Assembly (NCBI GenBank): GCA_003644275.1
Contig: QNBY01000007.1
Location: 1 to 15,476 of the forward strand
Direction: 5' to 3'
Source of the DNA: Planctomycetota bacterium
GTDB lineage: Bacteria; Planctomycetota; B143-G9
DNA: 15,476 nt
Shown: positions 1 through 14,400 of the stretch, in pieces
Layout of the letters: every line of letters begins with the position of its first letter
Position numbering within the stretch: the stretch's first letter is position 1
The notes under the pieces: model-generated
The model's input: the letters and a program-made list of their open reading frames with translations, nothing else
The model's database searches: none
Told to the model about the DNA's origin: nothing
Translations under genes and position numbers: made by a program

Positions 1-2380
1 CCGGGCTCTCGGGCGTCAGCGTCTGCGGCTCGCCGAACACCGGGAAGAGGGGGGAACCCGTCCTCTCGCGCCACGACCACACTATCTTCACCGGCTCCAT
101 CATGTCGAAGTTGACGTAGCTGCGGCCGGCGGGCTCGAGGGAACCAGTCTCCACCGTGTAGCCGTCGCAGTACCAGCCGGGAATGTAGCCGGGAACGCTG
201 GCCCGTACCGCGGTGCCGGAATCGGTCCACCAGGCGCCCAGCGGAGGCACCGCCTCCACGTTCGGAAGCGTGGAGTCTATGACGAGCAGGTACTGCGTCT
301 TCCAGTGCCAGGTTACCACCGTGGGATTGGTGCGGATGCGGAAGGTGTAGGTGAAGTCCTTCTCCTCACCCTCGCCCGCGCCCGCCCACTCGGTGGGGAG
401 GTTGTCGCCCTCGGCCGAGAAGCCGGTGCACACGTAGCGGACGCCCTCGTCCCCGGGAATCGGCGACTCCACCGTGAGCGTTATCTCGTCGTTGTAGGTG
501 TAAATGTGGTCGCCCGCCGGGGGCTCCGGCGCGCCGAAGGCGGAGATCACCGTGAGCGTTATGTCCGCAGGCTGAACTATCCACTTCAGCTCCGTGGGAC
601 CGGACATCGTGATGGTCACCGACGGGTTGACGGTGTTCTCGAAGTAGTGCGCCGTGCCGTTCAGGTAGTAGCCCACGCACAGGTAGTTCTTGCCGTCCAC
701 CTCGATGGGCGAGGTGATGGAGCAGGTGGTCACCTCGTCCTGCTGGAACCAGTAGTAGCCGGGGGCCGGATCGGGATCGCCCAACCCGCTCGGGTTCAGC
801 ACGTCCAGCCGGTATTCGTTGGCCCAGAGCCACGTTATCGTGGAGGGCTGGTAGAGGATGAACGACACCGAATTGTTCGTGCCCACCGCGGGCACCGCTC
901 CGGTCCCCTGGAACCCGATGCAGTAGTAGCGCACGTTGGAGGCCTGGTAAACCACCTCCTGCACGCTCGCCGTAACGGTGTCGTTCTGGTCGAAGAAGCT
1001 GTTGCCCGGCGGGGGTGTGGGCACGCCTATCCGCCGCGGGTTCAGCACCTGAAGGCGGTACTGCTGCGTCCACTGCCACTCGATGGTGCCCGGCCCGTCG
1101 CACAGGAAGACCACGGTCGGATCATCGTCGTATCCCCACGAGCCCGAGGACGGGACGGAGCCGGTGCCGACGAAGCCGGAGAGACGCCAGCCCACGTCGG
1201 GCGAGCTCGTCGGGACGAAGGTGGTGGTGGTGATGCTCGCCACCGTGTCGGCCCGCTGCCATACGTTGAACTCGGTGGCCGGCGCGCCTATCTGCTGGGC
1301 GCTGGTGACCTGAATGAGGTATTCCTTCACCCAGTGCCAGGTGATCCACCCGTCCCCGCTTATTGTCACCGTCACGGTGGGCGCGGTGCCGGTGGCCGGG
1401 ATGACCGTGCCGTCTCCCGTCCAGCCGGTGCACCTGTACTGCTCGTCCGTAACGCCCTGATAGGACCACGGAGAGGTCACCTGGAAGGTCGCGCTGCTCT
1501 GCCGCGGCAGGGGGTTCACTCCCACCGGCGGCGAGGGGTTGCCTATATTCGGATCCGGCGCGTCGGAGTTCACCGTTATGTCGAAGCCGGCTATTCCCAT
1601 GCACCAGTAGATCATGTTCTGGAAGGCGCCGGTCATCACGCCGTTGCTCCATTCGCCCACCACGAAGTTGTTGCCGTTGCCGTTGCCGTTCCACCAGATG
1701 GCCGTGCCGTCGTTGTCCGTCCGCCGGTACACCGATATCTTCGTGTACCAGGTCCCGCTCGTCCCGGACCACCAGCCTTTGATCTGGAACACGTCCACCG
1801 TGGAGTAGTTGGGATCGGGATGCGCCCCGTCGCAGTCCGTGTAGGCGTTGGTGGTGAACGAGCCCGAGTAGGCGCCGTATGGGCCGTTGGCTATCGGGTG
1901 GTTCTCCATGCCCTGCGCCACCCTGACCGTCCATGCGCTCGTGTTCGTCATGAGGTCCGGCGTGCTGGCCGCCACGAGTTTGAATATGCTCAGCCAGTTG
2001 TTGTGGACGCCTCCGCCCCAGCCGCCGGAGACCTCGTCGAAGCCGGTTCCTATGAGTATCCCGCCGTTCTTTACGTAGTCGTTCAGCGTGGTGGTGGCCC
2101 AGTCGGGCACGTCCATTCCCCCCCAGCCTCCGTTCTGGTAGAGGATGGTGATCCTGTAGGCGGATATGTTGTTCAGCTTGGCGGGATCGGACCAGACGTC
2201 GGAACGGGAGACCGTGGTGAGGCCCAAGGCGGTGAAGAGCGTCTTGCTCGAATCGAGGGGCTTGTTGGCCGTGGTGTCCAGCAAGAGGGCCGTCTCCGCC
2301 CGCGCCTCGGAGGCGAACACGCCCGCGCACAGCATCACCAGGAAAGCCAATGCCACGGTTGAGATAAGCCAACGCTTCAC
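1..2380 (-). CDS. Secreted protein with GATase-like N-terminal domain and InlB-B-like repeats (3' end outside window)
   Basis: Runs off the left edge, with 793 codons visible and no stop. The start is GTG at 2380, preceded by AAGGAG with a 6-nt spacer and followed at once by a signal peptide (MKRWLISTVALAFLVMLC, cleavage near ARA-E at residue 28-29). Residues about 30-265 resemble ThuA-type or class I glutamine-amidotransferase-like domains: an LNDYVKNGGILIGTG segment and a later WWNGNGNGN segment before a final helix. This assignment is tentative and no catalytic triad was identified. From about residue 267 there are roughly six repeats of 75-93 residues, each with a [TE]W-x-W-x-x-x-Y strand and several with a C-x-G-[WF]-x-G-[TD]G-x-[VI]P-A motif, as in divergent InlB-B or bacterial-Ig-type repeats. 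A cell-surface or extracellular role is likely. It lies 82 bp downstream of a gene with the same repeats and is probably co-transcribed with it. The visible C-terminal end (SPLFPVFGEP) resembles the point where the neighbour's repeats give way to its propeller. Confidence 0.85.
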   Translation of the reverse strand, partial: MKRWLISTVALAFLVMLCAGVFASEARAETALLLDTTANKPLDSSKTLFTALGLTTVSRSDVWSDPAKLNNISAYRITILYQNGGWGGMDVPDWATTTLNDYVKNGGILIGTGFDEVSGGWGGGVHNNWLSIFKLVAASTPDLMTNTSAWTVRVAQGMENHPIANGPYGAYSGSFTTNAYTDCDGAHPDPNYSTVDVFQIKGWWSGTSGTWYTKISVYRRTDNDGTAIWWNGNGNGNNFVVGEWSNGVMTGAFQNMIYWCMGIAGFDITVNSDAPDPNIGNPSPPVGVNPLPRQSSATFQVTSPWSYQGVTDEQYRCTGWTGDGTVIPATGTAPTVTVTISGDGWITWHWVKEYLIQVTSAQQIGAPATEFNVWQRADTVASITTTTFVPTSSPDVGWRLSGFVGTGSVPSSGSWGYDDDPTVVFLCDGPGTIEWQWTQQYRLQVLNPRRIGVPTPPPGNSFFDQNDTVTASVQEVVYQASNVRYYCIGFQGTGAVPAVGTNNSVSFILYQPSTITWLWANEYRLDVLNPSGLGDPDPAPGYYWFQQDEVTTCSITSPIEVDGKNYLCVGYYLNGTAHYFENTVNPSVTITMSGPTELKWIVQPADITLTVISAFGAPEPPAGDHIYTYNDEITLTVESPIPGDEGVRYVCTGFSAEGDNLPTEWAGAGEGEEKDFTYTFRIRTNPTVVTWHWKTQYLLVIDSTLPNVEAVPPLGAWWTDSGTAVRASVPGYIPGWYCDGYTVETGSLEPAGRSYVNFDMMEPVKIVWSWRERTGSPLFPVFGEPQTLTPESP

Positions 2381-2408
2381 GGTTGACTCCTTTCGTATGA
2401 TCTTCCTG

Positions 2409-2450
2409 CCGGAAATGCCTCTCTCATCCGCCTGAATAGTGCATTTCCGG
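2409..2450. repeat. Perfect 10-bp inverted repeat between the two secreted-protein genes
   Basis: CCGGAAATGC at 2409-2418 is the exact reverse complement of GCATTTCCGG at 2441-2450, with 22 nt between them. It lies in the 82-bp gap after the stop of the upstream minus-strand gene and before the ribosome binding site of the downstream one. There is no T-run after the stem, so it does not look like a standard intrinsic terminator. It could be an RNA hairpin setting relative expression or mRNA stability, or an operator. The repeat is seen directly; its function is unknown. Confidence 0.55.
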
Positions 2451-2462
2451 GAGTGGAACGCT

Positions 2463-4352
2463 TCAAAAAACCTTCGAGGCCCCGCCGAGCAGCCTTCTGA
2501 TCAACCCGCGAAGGGGGCTGCAGTCCTTCAGCCCGCGGGCGGGTTCGGGGGAGAGGCGGTAGTAGAGCTCCACCACGCCCCTGCCTATGCCGGAGGAAAA
2601 GGCCGTTCGGTCCCTGAAACCGCAAAGATCGGCGACCGAGGCGGCGCAATAGCTGCCGAAGGCCGCCGTCGCCACGAAGCACCCGCCGGTGTCCACGTGG
2701 TGGGCGCCTTCCTCCACCACGGGCGCGGGGGGCTCGGTGACGGGCGCGCCCCAACTGTCGGCCTTGCGGAAGCGCAGCGTCTCGTCCGCCCAGTACGCGG
2801 CCATGGGAAGCCCGTCATCGCCGAGCGCGAGCGAGCAGAAACGCCCCACGTGGTCGCCCGCGGCGTCCACCACGTCCGTGACCCAGAAGCGCCCGTTCCA
2901 GAACGTGTAGCGCACTCCACGCACCGTGTCGTCGTAATAGACGAGGTGCGGGAAGCCCGCGGCGTCCATCGCGAGGCTGCAGTAGAAGCCCACGTCCCCC
3001 GTCGACTGCACCACCCGGCTTATCCACACCTCTCCCGCCTGCTGCGCTATTATCACGTCTATCGTGCGGGGATCGTTGCGGTAGTCCTGGAAGACGACGT
3101 AGGGAACGCCGTTCCGGTCGAAGGCCAGGTCTATGAAATATCCCGTGCCCGGTATGGCGGTCACCAGCTGGCGGTGCCACTCGCCGGCCTCACGGTAGAT
3201 GTAGTACACGCAGTCCTCGGTCTCGCTCCGGTACGCCACGGCGGGCTCGCCCGTTATCGGGTTGGTGGCTATGGCGGTGTAGGTGCCCACGTCGCCGTCG
3301 CTGTCCAGCACCAGGTGAGGCTCGGGCCGCCAGAAGCCGTCCTGGAACTCCCGGTAGAGAAGGTCGCCGTTCGTCTCGTCGTAGTAGGAAACGCCGAGCC
3401 TCGCGCCCGGAAGCACCGTGATGTCGCAGTACATGCCGACGAAGCCGCCCTCGTCCACTATGTCGTTGTACCAGTTGCCCTCGATGTCCTTGTGGGCTAT
3501 CTTCAGGTCGCGGTAGCCGTAGCCGTAGTAGAGGATGACGGGAGAATCGCTCTCGTCGAATATCAGCTTCGTGAACTGGCCCACGAGGATGGAGGAATCG
3601 GCCGTCTCAAGGTGCCATTCCGTCCCGTCGAACCAGGCGTACTTCAGGTCGCCGTTCTCCTCGTCGAAATAAGATATCGCGGGCTGGTGCGTGGCGGGAT
3701 TCACCGCCACCGAGGCGTACTTGCCCACCCGGGGACCGGAGTCCACCACCTCGGCCGGAGAGCCGAAGAGGGGCGTCCGCATCAGCTCCGCCGCCCGGTA
3801 GTACCACGTTATCGAGGAAGGCGAGTTCATCGTGACTTCGAGATGGTGGACGGAGCCCGCGGGTATCTCGCCCGTGCCGGCGTACCCGTCGAACAGCAGG
3901 TCCGCCACGAACAGCGGCGCGCCCAGCGCCACCTCCGTCCCCTCCTTGTAGTAATGCGCCCCCAGAGCGGGCCGGCAGGGTATCTCATAGTCGCAAAGCA
4001 CCTTCAGCTCGTACCACCTCTCCCATAGCCACGTCACGGTGGAGTTGAGGAATATCTCGAAGTGGAAGCTGTTCGTCGAGCCCGTCGCGGGCACGCTTCC
4101 GGTGCCCGTCCAGCCCGAACAGTACATCCTCACCCCGTCGGAGACCTGGACGTACTCATCCACCGCGCAGAACACGGTGACGCCGCTCTGGTACACCGAA
4201 ACTCCCCTGGCGGGAGAGGGCGAGCCGTACTCCGAGGAAACCTCCAGCGAGAAGGTGACGGCCTCCGCCGCAGGGGCGGCGAACAGGAGGGCGGCGAACA
4301 CCGACACCGTGGTTGCGAGGACCAGGCAAAAGAGAAAGCGGGGTGATTTCAT
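2463..4352 (-). CDS. Secreted protein: InlB-B-like repeats, seven-repeat beta-propeller, CFI-box C-terminus
   Basis: 629 residues. ATG at 4352 is chosen over an in-frame ATG at 4406 because GGAGGGAA lies 3-4 nt upstream, a signal peptide follows immediately (residues 1-31, ending AAEA), and the 4406 ATG falls inside the promoter -10 element. Residues 33-190 hold two InlB-B-like repeats (CSGWTGTGSVPATG; FDGYAGTGEIPAG). Residues 209-531 contain seven regular repeats of 48-51 residues, each opening with [VT]G-x-[YF]-x-x-[ILV]-[AIT] (at 209, 257, 305, 355, 403, 454 and 502) and running into an A-x-SYYD-like strand. Seven such units suggest a seven-bladed propeller. The C-terminal domain starts at C558 with CFVATAAFGS, followed by GFRDR, a conserved G, LYYRLSPEPA and a basic tail, matching the CFI-box-CTERM domain (normally CFIATAAYGS). 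That domain is known as a C-terminal module of exported proteins; its processing is unclear. Ligand unknown. Confidence 0.9.
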   Translation of the reverse strand: MKSPRFLFCLVLATTVSVFAALLFAAPAAEAVTFSLEVSSEYGSPSPARGVSVYQSGVTVFCAVDEYVQVSDGVRMYCSGWTGTGSVPATGSTNSFHFEIFLNSTVTWLWERWYELKVLCDYEIPCRPALGAHYYKEGTEVALGAPLFVADLLFDGYAGTGEIPAGSVHHLEVTMNSPSSITWYYRAAELMRTPLFGSPAEVVDSGPRVGKYASVAVNPATHQPAISYFDEENGDLKYAWFDGTEWHLETADSSILVGQFTKLIFDESDSPVILYYGYGYRDLKIAHKDIEGNWYNDIVDEGGFVGMYCDITVLPGARLGVSYYDETNGDLLYREFQDGFWRPEPHLVLDSDGDVGTYTAIATNPITGEPAVAYRSETEDCVYYIYREAGEWHRQLVTAIPGTGYFIDLAFDRNGVPYVVFQDYRNDPRTIDVIIAQQAGEVWISRVVQSTGDVGFYCSLAMDAAGFPHLVYYDDTVRGVRYTFWNGRFWVTDVVDAAGDHVGRFCSLALGDDGLPMAAYWADETLRFRKADSWGAPVTEPPAPVVEEGAHHVDTGGCFVATAAFGSYCAASVADLCGFRDRTAFSSGIGRGVVELYYRLSPEPARGLKDCSPLRGLIRRLLGGASKVF

Positions 4353-4405
4353 AGGTTCCCTCCGCCGACCGTAGCCGAAGCGTGACGGTTTGCACGTAGT
4401 CAGCA

Positions 4406-4433
4406 ACTATACATATACTCGTTCGTTTGTCAA
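4406..4433 (-). promoter_or_regulatory. Sigma-70-type promoter for the CFI-box protein gene
   Basis: Reading the minus strand, TTGACA (4433-4428, a perfect -35) is followed by a 16-bp spacer and TATAGT (4411-4406, 5 of 6 to the -10 consensus). It sits in a conspicuously AT-rich patch of a GC-rich window. The predicted transcript start near 4399 gives a leader of about 47 nt before ATG 4352. It probably drives both secreted-protein genes. Confidence 0.75.
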
Positions 4434-4555: not shown

Positions 4556-4888
4556 TCAACCGCGGTGCTTCTCCACCCGGTCGCGGATGACGGCCTCGGG
4601 CTGCACGCCGAGCATCCTCTCCACCTCGTTGCCGTTCTTGAACACTATGAGGGTGGGAACCGCGCGTATGCCGTATTCCAGCGCTATCTTCCTCGCCTCG
4701 TCCACGTCCAGCTTCGCGAACTTCACGTCCGCCGCGTCCGCGTACTGCTTCTGCAGGTTCTCGATGATGGGAGTGATGAACCGGCAGGGGCCGCACCATT
4801 CGGCGGAGAAGTCCACCACCGCCACGCCCTTGTGCTCCAGTATCTCGCTCTGGAAGTTCTGTTCGTTCACGCTCAGTACATCGGCCAT
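4556..4888 (-). CDS. trxA: Thioredoxin
   Basis: 110 residues, the normal length for a single-domain cytoplasmic thioredoxin. It shows the classic active site W31-C-G-P-C35, the preceding VVDFSAE strand, the D61-V-D segment, the cis-proline motif AVPT (P78) and the FKNGNEVERMLG strand-turn-strand. No signal peptide is present. AAGGAG lies 7 nt before the ATG. It reduces protein disulfides in the cytoplasm using thioredoxin reductase, which is not in this window, and is the usual electron donor to CcdA/DsbD membrane proteins. That fits its position 130 bp downstream of the TlpA-like gene and in the same orientation as a CcdA/DsbD gene. A strong terminator follows. A weak hairpin in the upstream gap leaves open whether it is read through from the sigma-54 operon or has its own promoter. 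Confidence 0.97.
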   Translation of the reverse strand: MADVLSVNEQNFQSEILEHKGVAVVDFSAEWCGPCRFITPIIENLQKQYADAADVKFAKLDVDEARKIALEYGIRAVPTLIVFKNGNEVERMLGVQPEAVIRDRVEKHRG

Positions 4889-5018: not shown

Positions 5019-5579
5019 CTACTTCTTCCCGCCGTCTCCCTTGCCGTCCTTCTCCTTCGGCTTCGGAAGAAGGCTCTTTATCAGCTTCTCCGAAGGGGCC
5101 TGCGAGTTCCTGTAACGGATGACCCCCTTCAGGTCCACCAGTATGTTCGTCGGAACGCCCACCACTCCGTACTTGCGGAGTATCTCCTGGGACGAATCGT
5201 CGAGTATGGTGTATTCTATCCCGTTCTTCTCCGCGTACTTCTTCAGCTTCTCGCGGGAGTCGTACACGTTGAGAGCCAGTATCTTCAGCCCCTTCGAGGC
5301 GTATTCCTTGTGCAGCTTCTTCAGGGCGGGTATCTCCCTCACGCAGTGCGGGCATCCCAGATACCAGAAGACCAGAAGCACGGCCTTCTCCTCCCGATAG
5401 TCGCTCAGCGTGTGCTCGGCGCCGTTTATGTCCTCGAGGGTGAAGTCGAAAGCCGTCTCCCCGACCTTCGAGCCCTCCTTCGGCTTCTTGCCCTTCGACG
5501 CCGCCTGCAGCGCCACGAGGCCGTAAACCAGCGCCGCCGTGGCCAGCAAGACGAGCCCGGTCGCTATCTTCCTCATCAT
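5019..5579 (-). CDS. Membrane-anchored TlpA/ResA-like thiol-disulfide oxidoreductase with CPHC active site
   Basis: 186 residues from the first of two adjacent ATGs. The second (5576) has the better AAGGA spacing of 6 nt and may be the true start; the protein differs by one Met. Residues 5-26 form a single hydrophobic N-terminal anchor, so the catalytic domain should face the periplasm. A redoxin/TlpA fold follows: the AFDFTLEDINGAEHTLSDY lead-in, the VLLVFWYLGCPHCVREIPAL active-site helix with C76-P-H-C79, and the GVPTNILVD cis-proline motif (P143). Family members reduce periplasmic disulfides, for example on apocytochrome c, using electrons from CcdA/DsbD. The usual Trp before the first Cys is Gly here, and the inter-Cys dipeptide is PH, as in DsbA. 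The Lys/Asp-rich tail is probably disordered. It starts 23 bp after the CcdA/DsbD-type gene, clearly in one operon. No cytochrome c maturation genes are in view, so the substrate is unknown. Confidence 0.88.
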   Translation of the reverse strand: MMRKIATGLVLLATAALVYGLVALQAASKGKKPKEGSKVGETAFDFTLEDINGAEHTLSDYREEKAVLLVFWYLGCPHCVREIPALKKLHKEYASKGLKILALNVYDSREKLKKYAEKNGIEYTILDDSSQEILRKYGVVGVPTNILVDLKGVIRYRNSQAPSEKLIKSLLPKPKEKDGKGDGGKK

Positions 5580-5602
5580 TCTTCCTTTCCCTTCCGGCGG
5601 GA

Positions 5603-6382
5603 TCAGAAGGAGGCCACGCCCGCCTTGAATATGAAGTATTCCGCCGTCCCCAGGAGCACCAGCCCGAAGAACACCTTCACCGCCTTCATCCACGGCCCGC
5701 TCCGCGGCAGCGAGGCGAGCAGTCCGGCGAAGGTGCCGGCCAGCACCAACAGGGCTCCCAGACCGAGCGAGAAGGAAAACATGAGCAGCGACGCCTTCAG
5801 CAGCGAGCCCGTGCCGGAGGCCATCGTCAGTATGGCCGCGAGCACGGGACCGGTACAGGGGCCCACCACCAGCGCGGAGACCGCGCCCACCATGAAAGCC
5901 CCGACGTAGCCGCCTCTCTTTCCCGCCTCGTCGGCCCGGCGGGAAAACCGGTCCGCCAGGAAGGCGGGCGCCTTCAGCTCGAAAAGCCCCAACATGGACA
6001 GCGCGAGCAACAGAAAGAGATTGCCGAGTCCCAGGTTCACCCACATGTTGCCGGACAAGGCCCCCACCATCGTCTTCACCACCTGGGTGAGCACCAGTCC
6101 CAGGGCGGTGTACACCACCGCCATGCCGAGGACGTAGCTCAACGACAGCGTGAAGCCGTGCCACCTGGAGCCGCCCGAAGCCGCCCCTATGTAGCCCACC
6201 GTGAGCGGCACCACGGGATAGACGCAGGGCGTGAACGACGTGAGCACCCCCGCGGCGAAGACGAGCACCGGCGCGAGCCAGCTTCCGCTCTCCACCGCGC
6301 GCTCGGCCGATTCCCTCAGCCCCTCGAAGAACGAGGGAGAGGAAGCCGCCATGAGCGTCAGGGAGCCGAGGCCGGGAATCAT
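5603..6382 (-). CDS. CcdA/DsbD-type membrane thiol electron transporter
   Basis: 259 residues, about the size of CcdA or of the membrane domain of DsbD without the periplasmic alpha and gamma domains. Six hydrophobic segments are visible (about 35-68, 77-100, 113-136, 158-190, 197-224 and 233-253). The two redox cysteines lie in their characteristic contexts: C53 in SFTPCVYPVVPLTVGYIG, and C176 in VVGPCTGPVLAAIL. These proteins take electrons from cytoplasmic thioredoxin and pass them across the inner membrane to periplasmic TlpA/CcmG-like proteins; both partner types are encoded just downstream. The first 34 residues before TM1 are a little longer than usual. The ATG lies one base after the stop of the upstream thioredoxin-like gene, so translation is probably coupled; Met11 is an alternative start. 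Whether to name it ccdA or dsbD is a matter of convention, so no symbol is given. Confidence 0.93.
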   Translation of the reverse strand: MIPGLGSLTLMAASSPSFFEGLRESAERAVESGSWLAPVLVFAAGVLTSFTPCVYPVVPLTVGYIGAASGGSRWHGFTLSLSYVLGMAVVYTALGLVLTQVVKTMVGALSGNMWVNLGLGNLFLLLALSMLGLFELKAPAFLADRFSRRADEAGKRGGYVGAFMVGAVSALVVGPCTGPVLAAILTMASGTGSLLKASLLMFSFSLGLGALLVLAGTFAGLLASLPRSGPWMKAVKVFFGLVLLGTAEYFIFKAGVASF

Positions 6383-6383
6383 C

Positions 6384-6722
6384 CTACTCGTCTTCCTCCA
6401 CTATCCTGTGGTACTCGTCCAGCGAGCGCTCCACCCACGCGTCGATGTGCTCCGCGAAGTAGAAGCGGCTCGTCGCGGCCACGAAGTTCCCGTTGAAGTA
6501 GAGCGCGAGCAACGTAACTCCTTCTTCCTCCTCGGGCGAGTCGGCGGGGGTGTAGCTTATCACCTTCAGGCGTTCCCTCCGGAGCGCCACCCGCTCGAGC
6601 TGCCCCAGGACGAACTCGCTCAGCAACGAGTCCCTGCCCGGAAAGACCACGAGCACGGGCCCCGTCTGTTCGAGAACCTCGTACCTGAATTCTTCGCTCG
6701 AGTGCAACCTGACCAGAGTCAT
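6384..6722 (-). CDS. Thioredoxin-like protein lacking the CXXC motif
   Basis: 112 residues from ATG 6722. This start has GGGAGG 6 nt upstream and is preferred to an in-frame ATG at 6767 that lacks such a site. The protein lines up with a thioredoxin fold: residues 21-30 (GPVLVVFPGR) match the strand before the active site, and 68-84 (GVTLLALYFNGNFVAAT) match the strand-turn-strand after the cis-proline. The WCxxC motif is replaced by a stretch around GRDSLLSEF, the cis-proline is not obvious, and the protein contains no cysteine at all. It therefore cannot do thiol exchange and may be a scaffold, chaperone-like subunit or regulator of the CcdA/DsbD protein encoded one base downstream. No signal peptide or membrane segment is seen, so it should be cytoplasmic. 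The acidic C-terminus (EEDE) is notable. It is the first gene after the sigma-54 promoter. The fold assignment is moderately sure; the function is unknown. Confidence 0.75.
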   Translation of the reverse strand: MTLVRLHSSEEFRYEVLEQTGPVLVVFPGRDSLLSEFVLGQLERVALRRERLKVISYTPADSPEEEEGVTLLALYFNGNFVAATSRFYFAEHIDAWVERSLDEYHRIVEEDE

Positions 6723-6794
6723 TTTTACCTCCCGCCAGGCCGCCGTTCTTTCCGGAGTATACCTCAAATCTCCGCGGCCCGGCGCTTTTCAGGT

Positions 6795-6811
6795 TGCAAG
6801 GCCCGTGCCAA
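6795..6811 (-). promoter_or_regulatory. Sigma-54 (RpoN) -24/-12 promoter for the thiol-redox operon
   Basis: The minus strand reads TTGGCACG-GGCC-TTGCA (6811 to 6795), essentially the sigma-54 consensus YTGGCACG-N4-TTGCW, with exactly 10 bp between the GG and GC pairs. The transcript should start near 6784, about 60 nt before ATG 6722. Sigma-54 promoters need an activator of the NtrC class, and such a gene ends about 210 bp upstream in the same orientation. The motif lies in an intergenic region, at the expected place and orientation, which makes chance unlikely. Confidence 0.88.
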
Positions 6812-6897
6812 AGTCCGCGCTTCTGTCGCAACACGCGAAATGCAAAGAAGTTACAAGCAAAATCCGAGCCGAGGGCCGCGTCGCGTCCCCCCTCACT

Positions 6898-6916
6898 GTG
6901 CACTGGAATACACAAC
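6898..6916. promoter_or_regulatory. Candidate upstream activator site, copy 1
   Basis: GTGCACTGGAATACACAAC. The first 16 bases form an imperfect dyad (GTGCAC-TGGA-ATACAC). It matches the copy at 7001-7019 at 15 of 19 positions without gaps. Its centre is about 120 bp upstream of the predicted sigma-54 transcript start, within the usual 80-200 bp range for enhancer sites. Binding by the neighbouring NtrC-type protein is inferred. Confidence 0.6.
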
Positions 6917-7000
6917 AGCGCAGGCGCGCTTGTGAAGGTATCTTCAGTATTGAACGGGAGTTACGGCGTTATCGCCGCCGCCTCTCCCTCTCGCCCTTTA

Positions 7001-7019
7001 GTGCACCGGAGTGCACACC
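7001..7019. promoter_or_regulatory. Candidate upstream activator site, copy 2
   Basis: GTGCACCGGAGTGCACACC. This copy carries a perfect 6-bp dyad (GTGCAC-CGGA-GTGCAC) and is probably the stronger site. It begins exactly 103 bp from copy 1, close to ten helical turns, so both would present the activator on the same DNA face. Half-sites of the TGCAC type recall the enterobacterial NtrC site (TGCAC-N7-GTGCA), but the spacing here is 4 bp rather than 7. Confidence 0.62.
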
Positions 7020-7020
7020 G

Positions 7021-8400
7021 TCAGCGGCTAGCCGCTTCCTTCAGCCCATACTTCTTTATTATGCGGTGCAGGTAGGACCTCTCTATCCCCGCCTCCCGCG
7101 CCGCCGCGCTCACGTTCCCGCCGTGCCGCGCCAGAAGGGCCGAGAAGTAGTTCACCGTGAACCGCTCCATCACGCGCCGCTTCGCCATGTCGTAGGGAAG
7201 GTTCACGTCCACATCGAGCCTCTCGCGGTCCGTCCCCGAAAACGCCAGGTGCTCCGGCTTCACCACCTCGCCCGGGTGCTCCACCACCAGTTTCACGCAC
7301 AGGTTCACGAGCTCCCGGACGTTGCCGGGCCACTTGTACGCGACCAGCAGCTCCATCGCCTCGTCGGACAGCCGCGGCTTGGCGAGCCCCCTCCGCGCGG
7401 CCTGGTCCGACAGGTGGTGCTCCATCAGAAGCACCACGTCCTCTTTCCTCTCCCGAAGCGGCGGCATGCGAATCTCTATCACCGAAAGCCGGTAGTACAG
7501 GTCGGTGCGGAACGTTCCCTCCTCGACCGCCTTCTCCAGCTCCTTGTTCGTGGCCGCGATCACCCGCACGTCGGTGCGTATCCAGCGGGTGGAGCCCAGC
7601 GGGAGCACCATGCCGTCGTCGAGGTAGCGCAGCAGCTTCGCCTGCAGCGACATGGGCATCTCGCCTATTTCGTCGAGGAACATGCTTCCCCCGTCCGCGA
7701 GCGCGAACAGCCCGCTCTTGGCCCTGTCGGCGCCCGTGAACGCGCCCTTCGCGTGCCCGAAGAGCTCGCTCTCCAGCAGCGCTTCCGGTATCGCCGCGCA
7801 GTTCACCGGCACGAACGGGCCCTCCCCCCGCGGCGACAGCTCGTGGACCGCCCGCGCCGCCAGCTCCTTGCCCGTCCCGCTCTCCCCGGTTATGAGCACC
7901 GAGGCGAAGCGGTCCCGCGCGCTCGTCACTATCCGCCGCTTCACCTCCTTTATCGCTTCGCTCTCGCCTATTATCCTCTCCATCGCGGAGTGCTTCAGGT
8001 TCCTCTGGAGCTCCATCGCCCGCTTGAGCCTCGCCGTGCGGAAGGCCCGCTTCAGCGCCTGTTCCACCACCTCCGCATGGATGGGTTTCGTTATGAAGTC
8101 GAACGCCCCCAGCCTCATCGAGCGTATCGCCTTCTCCATGTCGCCGTGGCCGGTTATGACTATCGTCAGCGCCTCGTCCGCCAGCAGGCGGTTCATCCCC
8201 TCCATCACCTCGAAACCGCTCGTGTCCGGCAGAAGCAGGTCGAGCAGCACTATGTCCGCCCCCACCTTCTCCAGGTGCTCCAGCGCGGGTTTTCCCTCCC
8301 CGAACTCCACGATCTGGAAGTCGCCGCACTTCGTCAGTATGTTCGAGAGAAGTTTCCGTATCGCCGGATCGTCGTCCACTATCACGAGCCTCAGGGACAT
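7021..8400 (-). CDS. NtrC-family sigma-54-dependent response regulator
   Basis: 459 residues, full length for the family. The receiver domain (1-120) has the acidic pocket D9-D11, phospho-acceptor D54 in VLLDLLLPD, T83 and K105. The AAA+ domain (about 141-375) has Walker A GESGTGKE (172-179), the sigma-54-contacting GAFTGA loop (219-224), Walker B GGSMFLDE (237-244) and the arginine-finger region FRTDLYYRLSVIEIRMPPLRER. The C-terminus (about 405-459) ends in a Fis-type helix-turn-helix (GGNVSAAAREAGIERSYLHRIIKK). All key residues are intact, so it should be phosphorylatable and able to activate sigma-54 RNA polymerase. AGGAGG lies 6 nt before the ATG. It is the last gene of a run with two lipoproteins, 25 bp after the LpoB-like gene, and no histidine kinase is present in the window. 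The nearby sigma-54 promoter and paired dyads are its most likely target. Confidence 0.96.
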   Translation of the reverse strand: MSLRLVIVDDDPAIRKLLSNILTKCGDFQIVEFGEGKPALEHLEKVGADIVLLDLLLPDTSGFEVMEGMNRLLADEALTIVITGHGDMEKAIRSMRLGAFDFITKPIHAEVVEQALKRAFRTARLKRAMELQRNLKHSAMERIIGESEAIKEVKRRIVTSARDRFASVLITGESGTGKELAARAVHELSPRGEGPFVPVNCAAIPEALLESELFGHAKGAFTGADRAKSGLFALADGGSMFLDEIGEMPMSLQAKLLRYLDDGMVLPLGSTRWIRTDVRVIAATNKELEKAVEEGTFRTDLYYRLSVIEIRMPPLRERKEDVVLLMEHHLSDQAARRGLAKPRLSDEAMELLVAYKWPGNVRELVNLCVKLVVEHPGEVVKPEHLAFSGTDRERLDVDVNLPYDMAKRRVMERFTVNYFSALLARHGGNVSAAAREAGIERSYLHRIIKKYGLKEAASR

Positions 8401-8425: not shown

Positions 8426-8992
8426 TCAGGGCGCTACCGGAGTCCGGCGGAGGGCTTTCTTCAGCTCGCGCTCCACCGAACATATCGTGATCCCCGTCTC
8501 CGTGTCCGTCGCCTCAACCGTGAGCAGGTAGTACACCACCTTGCGGTTGCGCGCGGGCCTCACGGCGACCGAGGACAACCTCCCCGTCACCAGCACGTCC
8601 GCCCCGGCGAGCCGCGCCCTCTCGAGCTCCTTCCCGGCCCCTTCCTCCCGGAGGTGCTCCCGCAGCGCGGCGTCCGCCACTCGGAAGCCCATGCGCGTGA
8701 GCTCGGCGGCCACCGACCCGGCGAGGGCCGACATGTCTATCCGGTCAGCCGTTCGGTTGCGGAACGGAAGGAAGAGCAGCACCGCGTCCCTGCGTCCCGC
8801 GAGGCCTTCCGCGAGCTCCGCGGCCGCGCCCCGCGCGAGAAGCTTGAAATCGGTGTCGGAGAAGAACTCGCTCACCGGCGTCGGCGCGGACGGATCTTCG
8901 TACCTCCCCTCCCCCGCGCAGCCGGCGAGCAGAAGAAGGCTAACGCCTACGGCAATAAGCAAGGTAACCGGCGATTTCCCTGGCGACGGCAT
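8426..8992 (-). CDS. lpoB: LpoB/YcfM-family outer-membrane lipoprotein
   Basis: 188 residues with a lipoprotein signal peptide; the lipobox LLAGC puts the lipidated Cys at residue 25. After it comes YEDPSAPTPVSEFFSDTDF, much like the start of the mature LpoB domain, then RNRTADRIDMSAL (compare KNKTSEHIDTESV in E. coli), GADVLVTGRLSSV and a YYLLTVEATDTETG strand pair before a basic end. LpoB-type proteins in enterobacteria activate the peptidoglycan synthase PBP1B from the outer membrane; in distant bacteria the family is found more widely and its partner is often unknown. The start is well supported by GGAGGAG 7 nt upstream, although it lies within the end of the preceding lipoprotein gene (53-bp overlap in another frame). 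The gene is followed closely by the NtrC-type regulator, which suggests an envelope-related signal. Family call fairly sure; PBP activation is inference. Confidence 0.82.
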   Translation of the reverse strand: MPSPGKSPVTLLIAVGVSLLLLAGCAGEGRYEDPSAPTPVSEFFSDTDFKLLARGAAAELAEGLAGRRDAVLLFLPFRNRTADRIDMSALAGSVAAELTRMGFRVADAALREHLREEGAGKELERARLAGADVLVTGRLSSVAVRPARNRKVVYYLLTVEATDTETGITICSVERELKKALRRTPVAP

Positions 8993-9494
8993 CCACTATC
9001 TCCTCCCCGGACATATCGGGCCGGAACCAGGGTTCGCGGTAGGAAAACCTCGCGATCTCCCGGCCGGACAGGTTGTCCCTCAAAACCACCTCGACCCCGA
9101 AGACCGCCGACCCGCGCCCCCGCGGGAGAACCTTCCTCACCCGCCCCGACGGGTTGTACTCCACTATGTAGCCCGTCACCAGCAGGCCGGGACGGTCGGC
9201 CTCCCACAACCGGACGTCCTTGAACGCCTGCGGATGGTAAAAGTTCAGCTTGTGGTATATGCGCTCGGGAAAGTCCACGCCTATGTCCCGCGACTCTATG
9301 CCGTTCAGCACCTGGAAGCGCCCGATTATCACGCGATCGTATTCCTTCAGGCTCAGGTCTTCCGGCGGAGGGGGAGCGTAGCTGTAGGAAGGTTTCCTGT
9401 CCACCCTCGCCACCTTGCCCGCGTTGCAGGCCGCGGCGATCGCCAGCAGCACGAGCGTGAGCAGAAACGCCTTCCATCTCATGCCCGCAATCAT
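8940..9494 (-). CDS. DUF4410-like lipoprotein or exported protein
   Basis: 184 residues from ATG 9494; a second ATG at 9482 (MRWKAFLL) is an alternative start. The N-terminus is a signal peptide, with AIAAAC giving a possible but not canonical lipobox. The mature part has a KEYDRVIIGRFQV strand, then GLLVTGYIVEYNPSGRVRKVLPRGRGSAVFGVEVVLRD and a SGREIARFSY strand, ending in a helix SGEEIVDAVAREIAGYLAY. This order (gt-I-ey-pGs-r-R-…-G-a-…-v-x-l-x-D-…-G-x-x-i-a-x-f) is that of the DUF4410 family, related in fold to LpoB and CsgG-type envelope lipoproteins. The function is unknown. It begins 19 bp after the stop of the large secreted protein gene, and its last 53 bp are shared with the LpoB-like gene, so the two are almost certainly co-translated. 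Confidence 0.75.
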   Translation of the reverse strand: MIAGMRWKAFLLTLVLLAIAAACNAGKVARVDRKPSYSYAPPPPEDLSLKEYDRVIIGRFQVLNGIESRDIGVDFPERIYHKLNFYHPQAFKDVRLWEADRPGLLVTGYIVEYNPSGRVRKVLPRGRGSAVFGVEVVLRDNLSGREIARFSYREPWFRPDMSGEEIVDAVAREIAGYLAYCRRR

Positions 9495-11826: not shown

Positions 11827-11854
11827 AGGATAAGTGCTATGGGAAGTATCGCAA
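11827..11854 (-). promoter_or_regulatory. Possible sigma-70-like promoter for the lipoprotein-regulator operon
   Basis: On the minus strand, TTGCGA (11854-11849) and TATCCT (11832-11827) are separated by 16 bp. Each matches the consensus at only 4 of 6 positions. The predicted start near 11820 would give a leader of about 50 nt before GTG 11769. The -35 half lies in the first codons of the divergent HEAT gene. The 69-bp gap between the two genes must hold both promoters, but no better candidate was seen for either direction. Confidence 0.3.
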
Positions 11855-14400
11855 GGTTCTCGGCGGCGCTCGCTCTGTTCCTCGCCCTTTCCGCGGTGAT
11901 CGTGGGGGCGGAGGAGGCGGCTCCCAAGAAGTCCGGCCCTCCCGCCGGGAGGAGCGGGCTTTCCTCCTACGCCGAGCGCGAGGCGGCCGCCAGGAACTTC
12001 GACGCCTGGTGGAAGGACCACAGGGATTACCTCGTGCGGCCCCGTCCGTTCAGGTATTCCGGCAGGCAGGCCTCCCCGTCCGAACTGCTGAAGATGCTCA
12101 TCCTGCTCGGCTACCGCGGCGAGCTCGACGAAGTGCTCCACGCGCAGGCCACCGCCGAGCTCAAGTGGATGGGCTCGGCCGCCGCGAAGATACTGGGCGA
12201 GATAGTGAGCGGTGAACGGCGCTTCAGGGCGTCCGACCTGCCGCCCGGCCTGCGTTTCAAGGATATCCGCCGGTACGCCGCGATGGCGCTCGGGGCCGTG
12301 GGATACCGCGAGGAGCTCCCCCGCCTGGCGCGCGCCCTCGCCGATCCCGATCCCGAGTTGCGCGCGTGCGCCGCGGTCTCCATCGGCGAGCTGGGCGGCC
12401 TCGACTACACCCGCCTGCTTCTCGACACCTACCGCGACACCCGCCGCGTCGGCGAGTACAAGGTCCGCTCCGCCTTCCTCGCCGGGATGGTCTATCTCGC
12501 CGATCCCCGCGCCCTCCCCGAGCTCCTCGCGAGCCTCACCGACCGCGACGCCCGCGTCCGCGTCTCCGTTGCGACCGCCCTCGGCATGTTGTCCGAGGAA
12601 GCGGGGCCGCGCGTCATCGGGCATTACCTGAGGGAATACGCCAACTCCCCCTCCATCAGGACCGCCGGAATATGGGCGCTGGCCGAGTTGGGCAGGCGCA
12701 TGGCCGCGCGCCCGCATCCCGGGGCCGACGACTACACCGGCGACATGATGGTGGTGGAGCGCACGCTGAACACCATCGCCATACACGAGAACGTGCCCTT
12801 CGTCCGCTGCCACCTCGCCCTCGCCCTGGCCCACCTGGGCACCCCTTCGGCGCTGAGCACGCTCCGCTCCCTTTTGTACGACGTGGACGGCTGCGTCCGC
12901 CGGACCGCCGCGGTGGCGCTGGCCGTGGCCGGGGCGGACGCGCTGTCGGATCCCGTCGTTTCGAACGACGCGGAGCTGCTTCCCGCCGTCCGCGCCTGGG
13001 AGGAATGTTCCTCCCTCGTGAACGAGGCCCGGCCCGAAGCCGCTCTCGCCGCCTTTTCCTCCCGAATAAGGAAGTTCGAGAAGGAAGGCGCGCCCGGGGC
13101 CGCGGCCGCGCTCACGCTGGGCCTCGCCCGTACCTTCCTCCCCGGAAGGCTCGCCGTCATCGAGGCCGCGGCGTCCTCCCGCAAGCCGATACTTCGCACC
13201 GGCGCAATAGCCGCCCTCGGTGCCGTCCGCACGAGGACGGACGTCAAGCGCGCCGCCGCTTCCCTCATGCGTTTCGCCGCCCTGCCCTCCGGCGCGGACG
13301 AGAACTCGCTCGACCCCTCGGTGGTGGCTCTCATCGCCCTCGGGATGCTGGGTTCGGACAAGCCGTTGAACTTCCTCAAGTCCACCCTCGTCTCCCCGCC
13401 CTCAAAGGGAGAGAAGGGCGTTACCCGCATAGGGGCCGCGATGGCGCTCGTGCTGCTCGGCGGCCTGCCCTACCGCGAGCCGCTCATAAGCGTTCTGGAG
13501 AACGATCCCTCCCCCGCCGTGAGGTCGGCGGCCGCCTTCTCGCTCGGTCTCATCCGGGCGGAAGGCGTGTTGGAGACCCTCGTCTCCGTCATCGAGCACA
13601 GCACGAACGTGGACCTGCGGGCCAACGCCTGCTTCGCTCTCGCCCTGTTGCGCGACAAGGCCGCCCTGCCCGTCCTGTACGGCGTGATAACCGACCGTAG
13701 GCTCGCCCGCTCCTCCGACGGCAACTACCTGCGGGGCTGCGCCGCGTTCGCGCTCGCCTCGCTGAAGCCCGGCCCCGCCTACGTCCTCATGCTGAAGCGC
13801 GAGCTCGAGCGGTCGGACGACGAGAACTTCCTCGCCTTCTCCGCCCTCGCCGTCGGCTTGAGCGGACGCCTCGACGCGCTCGAGGCCGTGGTGCCGCTCC
13901 TGCGCCATCCTTCCGCGCAGGTCCGCCGCGCCGCCTGCCTCGGGATCGGCTTCAGCGGCAGGGAGGAATTCCTGCCCGAATTGTTCTCCGTGCTGCGCGG
14001 AAGCGCCGACGCGCCCACCCGCGTCCAGGCCGCCGTGGCGTGCGGGCTCCTCGGGGACGGCGCGGCGCTCGACGCGCTCGCCGCCATGCTCGACCCCGCC
14101 GCCGAGGGCAACTCCCGCGTGCGCGCCGCCGCCGCCATGGGAATAGCGCTGTTGGGCTCGGCGAGCGGCCCCGTGTCCAAGCGGCTCGCCGCCATGGAGC
14201 GCGACCCCGACCCCCGTTGCCGGTGGTTCGGCGCGGTCGCCCGTTACGTCCTCGGCGACATGGCCGCCGCCGACCTGCTCGTGGACTATATACGCGCGGG
14301 CGGCGCCGAATACCGGAGGGTGGACGCGAAGCTCCTCCGCTCCTGGGTGAACTCCCGCCTTCCTTCGCTTTTCAAGCTGAGGTCCTACTTGTTCGAGTGA
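11839..14400 (+). CDS. Secreted HEAT-repeat protein
   Basis: 853 residues from ATG 11839, with AGGA 8 nt upstream. Residues 1-24 form a signal peptide (ARFSAALALFLALSAVIVGA), followed by a short Lys/Pro-rich linker. From about residue 130 to the end there are repeated HEAT/PBS-lyase-type helical pairs, each with a pattern like ALADPDPELRACAAVSIGEL, VLENDPSPAVRSAAAFSLGL or LLRHPSAQVRRAACLGIGFS: an Asp or Pro turn, V-R-x-x-A-A in the second helix, and a G-[LI]-[GA] ending. A less regular stretch around 390-450 may split two solenoid blocks. HEAT solenoids bind other proteins; the export signal puts this one in the periplasm or outside. No catalytic motif is seen. It is divergent from the lipoprotein operon, sharing a 69-bp intergenic gap, and its last 16 bp overlap the convergent gene. 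Confidence 0.93.
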   Translation: MGSIARFSAALALFLALSAVIVGAEEAAPKKSGPPAGRSGLSSYAEREAAARNFDAWWKDHRDYLVRPRPFRYSGRQASPSELLKMLILLGYRGELDEVLHAQATAELKWMGSAAAKILGEIVSGERRFRASDLPPGLRFKDIRRYAAMALGAVGYREELPRLARALADPDPELRACAAVSIGELGGLDYTRLLLDTYRDTRRVGEYKVRSAFLAGMVYLADPRALPELLASLTDRDARVRVSVATALGMLSEEAGPRVIGHYLREYANSPSIRTAGIWALAELGRRMAARPHPGADDYTGDMMVVERTLNTIAIHENVPFVRCHLALALAHLGTPSALSTLRSLLYDVDGCVRRTAAVALAVAGADALSDPVVSNDAELLPAVRAWEECSSLVNEARPEAALAAFSSRIRKFEKEGAPGAAAALTLGLARTFLPGRLAVIEAAASSRKPILRTGAIAALGAVRTRTDVKRAAASLMRFAALPSGADENSLDPSVVALIALGMLGSDKPLNFLKSTLVSPPSKGEKGVTRIGAAMALVLLGGLPYREPLISVLENDPSPAVRSAAAFSLGLIRAEGVLETLVSVIEHSTNVDLRANACFALALLRDKAALPVLYGVITDRRLARSSDGNYLRGCAAFALASLKPGPAYVLMLKRELERSDDENFLAFSALAVGLSGRLDALEAVVPLLRHPSAQVRRAACLGIGFSGREEFLPELFSVLRGSADAPTRVQAAVACGLLGDGAALDALAAMLDPAAEGNSRVRAAAAMGIALLGSASGPVSKRLAAMERDPDPRCRWFGAVARYVLGDMAAADLLVDYIRAGGAEYRRVDAKLLRSWVNSRLPSLFKLRSYLFE

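Follow-up and report, generated by a model that had tools for sequence, protein, structure and literature searches.

Two dyad repeats as predicted upstream activating sites of a σ54 promoter in a Planctomycetota genome

Results

Overview

We analyzed a 15,476-nucleotide stretch of DNA from a Planctomycetota bacterium (the window) and found two dyad repeats that are, with high confidence, upstream activating sequences of the σ54 promoter at 6795–6810, where dimers of the response regulator encoded at 7021–8400 would bind. Activation of the downstream operon by this protein, through the dyads, DNA looping and open-complex formation, would be part of the same reading. Two lines of evidence support it. 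First, the repeats are flanked by the activator stop codon on one side and a perfect −24/−12 element on the other, the activator has the appropriate domains, and rpoN is present in the genome. Second, the same form of dyad occurs in the same place beside all seven activators that carry the same recognition helix in another family of the phylum (f74).

Sites, promoter and activator

The features on which the argument depends are as follows.

7021–8400, minus strand: response-regulator σ54 activator, with a receiver, an AAA+ domain with GAFTGA and a Fis-type helix-turn-helix (HTH) ending GIERSYLHRIIKKYGL.
7001–7019, minus strand: upstream activating site 2 (distal, predicted), with a GTGCAC-CGGA-GTGCAC core at 7001–7016 that is a perfect dyad.
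6898–6916, minus strand: upstream activating site 1 (proximal, predicted), with a GTGCAC-TGGA-ATACAC core at 6898–6913.
6795–6810, minus strand: σ54 (−24/−12) promoter TGGCACGGGCCTTGCA, with 0 mismatches to YTGGCACG-N4-TTGCW.

The two copies, GTGCACTGGAATACACAAC at 6898–6916 and GTGCACCGGAGTGCACACC at 7001–7019, are identical at 15 of 19 positions and offset by 103 bp, so that the coordinates and identity given in a preliminary description of this DNA are confirmed. Both had also been described as dyads of 6-bp arms around 4 bp. With regard to the core GTGCAC-N4-GTGCAC, this is true of the 7001 copy (6 of 6 pairs), but the 6898 copy is imperfect, with only 4 of 6 pairs. When flanking bases were included, site 1 (6897–6914, TGTGCACTGGAATACACA) fitted TGT-N12-ACA and site 2 (7000–7017), whose first base is A, was one letter off this form.

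The order along the minus strand is the activator stop codon, site 2, site 1, the −24/−12 element and a row of redox genes. Site 2 stands close to the activator gene, with only 5 bp separating its core and the stop codon, a placement that resembles three f74 loci (L203, L204 and L206). The repeats had earlier been said to lie between the activator gene and its presumed promoter; they are indeed located between the two, but follow the 3′ end of the activator gene, and it is the next row of genes that the promoter faces, not the activator gene. Assuming a transcript start near 6784, 12 bp past the −12 GC, we calculated dyad centres at about −122 and −225, in agreement with the previous estimate of about 120 and 225 bp. 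By the same kind of arithmetic, at 10.5 bp per turn, the 103-bp offset corresponds to 9.8 helical turns, as had been proposed (near ten), and the 22-bp offset found in f74 (see below) to 2.1 turns; both are near whole numbers. Between the two repeats there are further small dyads at 6932–6947 (around TGAAGGTATCTTCA, 6933–6946) and 6963–6978 (ACGGCGTTATCGCCGC), whose sequences are unrelated to the enhancer dyad. A weaker −24/−12-like element, TCGGCTCGGATTTTGCT at 6856–6872 (minus strand, 2 mismatches), is located between site 1 and the perfect element and could be due to chance.

The product of 7021–8400 has the receiver residues D54, T83 and K105 and the GAFTGA loop, all of which are common to four aligned f74 activators, and its recognition helix reads RSYLHRIIKK (hereafter labelled LHRIIKK). 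It scored below the cut-off with both the NCBIfam ntrC model (386 bits, cut-off 558.6) and the GlrR equivalog model (338.5 bits, cut-off 763). No other activator with this HTH was found in the draft genome (next best E-value 0.18, compared with 1.9e-11). We saw no histidine kinase gene in the window, so that the regulator looks like an orphan. In f74, a histidine-kinase-like gene is located just upstream of the activator in both loci tested (L194 and L195). Directly upstream of the window activator are two genes at 8426–9494 (minus strand), one of which matches LpoB (PF13036) while the other appears lipoprotein-like by eye; the window also encodes an 853-aa HEAT-repeat protein at 11839–14400 (plus strand).

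The expected layout of enhancer sites, which the preliminary description had proposed, is thus supported by a receiver-AAA+-Fis activator gene next to the sites, a perfect σ54 element downstream on the same strand, rpoN, and more than one dyad at about 100 bp or more upstream. Besides, the dyad is conserved together with the DNA-binding domain, as described in the following section.

The same dyad accompanies the same recognition helix in another family of the phylum

The relatives that were compared first (59 genomes) share only the phylum with the window genome, and in the best 80 named loci activator identity did not exceed 47%; for these reasons, the comparison was based on the HTH and extended to the whole phylum, where an HTH match was present in 230 of 392 genomes. 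Among 30 loci of the matches listed, five, including the window, had helix LHRIIKK. When these 30 loci were searched for GTRYAC-N4-GTRYAC with at most 1 mismatch, it occurred in the window and in 4 of the 29 remaining loci, and these 4 were precisely the other LHRIIKK loci. As a background, there were 19 sites in 1,063,293 bases, two of them the window's own copies (L086). All four belonged to f74. TGT-N12-ACA alone was also tried as a finder of relatives and was dropped, as it matched scattered places in loci without LHRIIKK as well.

An LHRIIKK activator is present in 7 of the 9 f74 genomes. Every one of these seven genes is followed by the dyad (at most 1 mismatch) 5–189 bp after its stop codon and by a σ54 element 205–360 bp after it, and this arrangement was found at none of 23 other f74 activator loci among the matches listed. 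Five of the seven genes have two dyads (at most 1 mismatch), always exactly 22 bp apart, compared with 103 bp in the window. So that the motif would not be tailored to f74, we also used a pattern derived from the window only (GTGYAY-N4-RTRCAC, at most 2 mismatches, within 250 bp after the stop codon). It was found in 11 of 11 LHRIIKK rows, representing 7 distinct genes, four of them counted twice, and in 5 of 154 other rows, which were not de-duplicated. At least two such sites were present in 9 of 11 and 1 of 154 rows, respectively. The window was excluded from these counts, and 3 of 168 rows were dropped because they contained too little sequence. In the 75 genomes of the class that contains f74, matches to the HTH alignment at E ≤1e-40 were limited to the seven f74 genes (the next value was 2.6e-14), and the dyad was seen at none of 23 loci of this class with another helix among the matches listed, several of which are genes of the phylum-wide set.

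Since the seven f74 genes form one clade, together they provide a single independent confirmation. We also compared the activators outside the HTH, in a receiver and AAA+ tree of 69 rows built by a quick method with the last 75 residues left out. The window activator did not group with those of f74, and starred branches forced at least two origins of the LHRIIKK label. Orthology of the window and f74 activators is thus unsupported, and the f74 case represents an analogy by DNA-binding domain and not an orthologue footprint. Because the label needs two changes, the shared helix would stem from domain exchange, convergence or a history finer than this tree can resolve. It is possible, though we consider it doubtful, that the same operator, GTRYAC-N4-GTRYAC, and the same helix came together in non-sister activators by domain exchange or convergence.

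Candidate regulon in f74

A search of the nine f74 genomes for exact GTRYAC-N4-GTRYAC dyads gave 25 occurrences, compared with 3 for the reversed control. A σ54 element (at most 2 mismatches, GG and GC kept) was located 155–220 bp downstream of 17 of these 25 dyads; the remaining 8 had no such element within 260 bp downstream. All 8 were inside reading frames of at least 80 aa, as were 2 of the 17 (L260 and L261). When positions were drawn at random in the same loci, 432 of 7200 had a σ54 element within 260 bp, a figure inflated by the fact that the loci were chosen around dyads. Of nine promoter-linked f74 loci away from the activator, seven (all except L258 and L266) had a partner dyad (at most 1 mismatch) 22 bp off. 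With regard to the spacing of the arms in f74, N6 scored nearly as often as N4 (11 and 12 sites, respectively); the 22-bp pairs fit either, and an N4 pair as one dimer site is favoured because the window dyads stand isolated.

The genes tested behind these promoters include several related to electron transfer. For example, a σ54 promoter precedes a Rieske/cytochrome b operon in 7 of 9 f74 genomes (L250, L253, L255, L257, L260, L261 and L265), with dyads spaced by 22 bp. A Rieske protein with cytochrome b was identified in L253, where a multihaem cytochrome follows, and L265; the other loci of this type were recognized by eye from the first residues. Divergent to this operon in L265 is a gene for a DsbH-type thioredoxin-domain protein. 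Behind the promoter in L195 are a lone receiver and then a c-type cytochrome whose haem domain is ethylbenzene-dehydrogenase-like; this cytochrome is also present in L196, and L194 has, behind a one-mismatch dyad, ferredoxins and the same kind of cytochrome as L195. Further promoters precede a pyridine-nucleotide/4Fe-4S oxidoreductase (L266) and an MFS carrier (L258). No activator-like frame was found among those listed up to 3 kb on either side of the Rieske promoters.

These data bear on the main alternative, namely that the dyads are operators for some other protein, such as a repressor or an FNR-like factor, and just share the intergenic stretch with the σ54 promoter. The link between the sites and the adjacent activator is drawn from sequence, and the promoter stretch does contain other small dyads, such as TGAAGGTATCTTCA. 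However, the dyad tracks helix LHRIIKK even where the target genes are unrelated, and among the matches listed for f74 and its class it was absent beside activators with another helix, the window-only pattern being limited to the 5 of 154 rows mentioned above. Besides, the distance of 155–220 bp to the σ54 element in 17 of 25 cases is farther than usual for σ70-type regulators. We therefore regard a different regulator as improbable.

Chance level and genome-wide occurrence

Considered on its own, the repeat in the window is suggestive but not compelling, being modestly beyond chance. A 19-mer direct repeat with at least 15 identities was obtained in 66 of 2000 dinucleotide shuffles (~3%) of the 253-bp intergenic stretch, and two similar dyads under a looser rule (any spacing from 0 to 10) in 14 of 500. 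In the whole window, GTGCAC-N4-GTGCAC with at most 2 mismatches had 2 matches compared with 0.65 expected, and 28 of 200 shuffles reached 2. Because shuffled sequences match the repeat this often, it becomes convincing only with the comparative evidence. These frequencies leave some room for a chance repeat in a G+C-rich intergenic stretch, with the f74 motif a genuine but unrelated operator, a reading that is also favoured by the lack of a sister relationship between the two activators beyond their HTH. Against it, the window agrees with f74 in the form of the site, its placement after the stop codon, the order of activator, dyads and σ54 element, and the recognition helix, and we consider such a coincidence very unlikely.

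The weakest alternative, that the dyads act as RNA hairpins at the end of the activator transcript or in a leader, could account for their folding as stems of 6 bp (or 8 bp) with a 4-base loop and for the position of the first dyad 5 bp past the stop codon, but we consider it very unlikely, as folding is unremarkable (z −1.79 and −0.75), neither dyad is followed by a T run, the only terminator-like match is elsewhere (6930–6917), and dyads also precede the f74 Rieske/cytochrome b promoters, where the absence of an activator-like gene among the listed frames indicates that they are not simply activator-gene terminators.

The window genome is a 1.67 Mb draft that is 77% complete, so further targets may be missing from it. 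The repeat is not scattered through this draft. Its full consensus with at most 3 mismatches occurs at 5 places. Both repeats fit it without mismatch, the three other matches are weaker (2, 3 and 3 mismatches), and no place besides the repeats has 0 or 1 mismatch. The 2-mismatch match (on contig C5) is inside a transporter reading frame, one 3-mismatch match is inside reading frames, and the other is located just past the 3′ end of rpoN. The latter copy (GTGCGCCGGATTGCGCACC, L202, G000:C253, 1615–1633; rpoN frame 1832–3355, minus) is upstream of a 443-aa minus-strand frame (260–1591); it is weak, and other open frames overlap.

YTGGCACG-N4-TTGCW without mismatch was found at 2 places in the genome, one of which is 6795–6810, and a related pattern at 3 places. 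With at most 2 mismatches, the σ54 pattern occurred at 58 places on both strands, below the 85 of the control. The dyad GTGCAC-N4-GTGCAC with at most 2 mismatches occurred at 53 places, barely above the 44 of the reversed control, and an exact dyad on contig C62 was inside reading frames. As relaxed patterns are at or below the control level, only near-perfect σ54 and dyad matches carry weight. The only other perfect σ54 element (L133, G000:C111, 1501–1517, minus strand) precedes a gene that, by eye, appears to encode a small secreted basic protein. No such dyad was found within the 3-kb locus of this element. Given this dyad-free locus and the 53 matches against 44, a second target was dropped and we claim none in the window genome; a search for dyads near other σ54 promoters, as suggested in the preliminary description, thus revealed no further target in the draft.

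Discussion

Relationship to known σ54 enhancers

The NtrC site is TGCAC-N7-GTGCA, with TGCAC and GTGCA as half-sites. Like enterobacterial NtrC enhancers, the window has two dyads more than 100 bp upstream of a σ54 promoter; unlike them, its arms are 4 bp apart, the NtrC arms being 3 bp wider apart. The difference in spacing from the enterobacterial NtrC site that had been noted therefore holds. The HTH frame GNVTxAARxAGxxR is similar to that of the enterobacterial relatives, which we take to be GlrR and QseF.

Two reports give a QseF site spacing of TGT-N12-ACA (PMC6075780) and a consensus of TGTC-N10-GACA for the QseF/GlrR class (PMC8745638). The window resembles QseF/GlrR at the E. coli glmY and rpoE promoters in that a response-regulator σ54 activator is combined with several activating sites upstream of a σ54 promoter and in the half-site spacing TGT-N12-ACA. 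In contrast, the fourth base in the window is R (G/A) and not C, the inner RYAC letters are constrained, and the activator has other recognition-helix residues and other target genes; the window copies read TGTG-N10-CACA and AGTG-N10-CACA and do not match TGTC-N10-GACA. For Desulfovibrio vulgaris, one study describes σ54 activator genes that are often next to the target promoter, regulons that mostly comprise 1–4 operons, and activator motif groups with TGT and ACA separated by 9, 11 or 12 bp (PMC4641369), and another describes Desulfovibrio response-regulator sites as mostly inverted repeats of 4–6 bp separated by 3–8 bp (PMC3333781). The window spacing TGT-N12-ACA is one of these three TGT/ACA spacings. 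A search of paper text, as opposed to logos printed as figures, found neither GTGCAC nor GTGTAC among the papers listed. It had been suggested that the dyad may define a new recognition sequence. This applies to the inner letters (RYAC rather than C), but the spacing class is already known for QseF; GTRYAC-N4-GTRYAC would thus best be read as a new operator of the known QseF/GlrR spacing class and not as an NtrC site.

The presumed target operon and mode of action

The row of genes behind the promoter, which probably forms one operon, is composed as follows.

6384–6767, minus strand: first gene of the presumed operon, a 127-aa protein with faint resemblance to thioredoxin and no CXXC.
5603–6382, minus strand: DsbD/CcdA-like membrane protein (PF02683).
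5019–5588, minus strand: TlpA/ResA-like thiol oxidoreductase (PF00578).
4556–4888, minus strand: thioredoxin (PF00085; TIGR01068 above cut-off).

A search of 293 other genomes sampled from the phylum gave no match to the 127-aa protein, and its predicted structure (mean pLDDT 43.6) was too poor for a structure search. A large protein encoded at 2463–4406 (minus strand) has a C-terminus that matches NCBIfam CFI-box-CTERM (NF041770, 55 bits, cut-off 40). DsbD/CcdA and TlpA/ResA proteins commonly serve to reduce thiols in the periplasm, among them the thiols of apocytochromes c, by delivering electrons. Based on these roles and on the cytochrome and electron-transfer targets in f74, a reasonable guess is that the signal may be a respiratory or envelope-redox cue.

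In the proposed mechanism, firing of a partner kinase would lead to phosphorylation of the response regulator, one dimer of which would occupy each dyad via the Fis-type HTH, with one half-site per GTRYAC arm. The dimers would assemble into an AAA+ ring, with 100–200 bp of intervening DNA looped, and open-complex formation at 6795–6810 would result in expression of the 127-aa/DsbD/TlpA/thioredoxin operon.

Significance

The finding is sound and useful, although the regulatory site is of an ordinary kind; its additional interest is in the pairing of helix and operator. For a σ54 activator from a lineage that is represented here by no more than a draft genome, it names a specific predicted operator together with the recognition helix and the candidate targets. 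In addition, the window and f74 activators, which combine one helix and one dyad with different protein bodies, form a clean pair for asking to what extent a Fis-type HTH determines its enhancer through the helix. If the doubtful reading mentioned above, domain exchange or convergence in non-sister activators, were true, helix letters would predict enhancer sequence across Fis-type σ54 activators, and helix LHRIIKK would mark a respiratory or thiol-redox control module in uncultured lineages.
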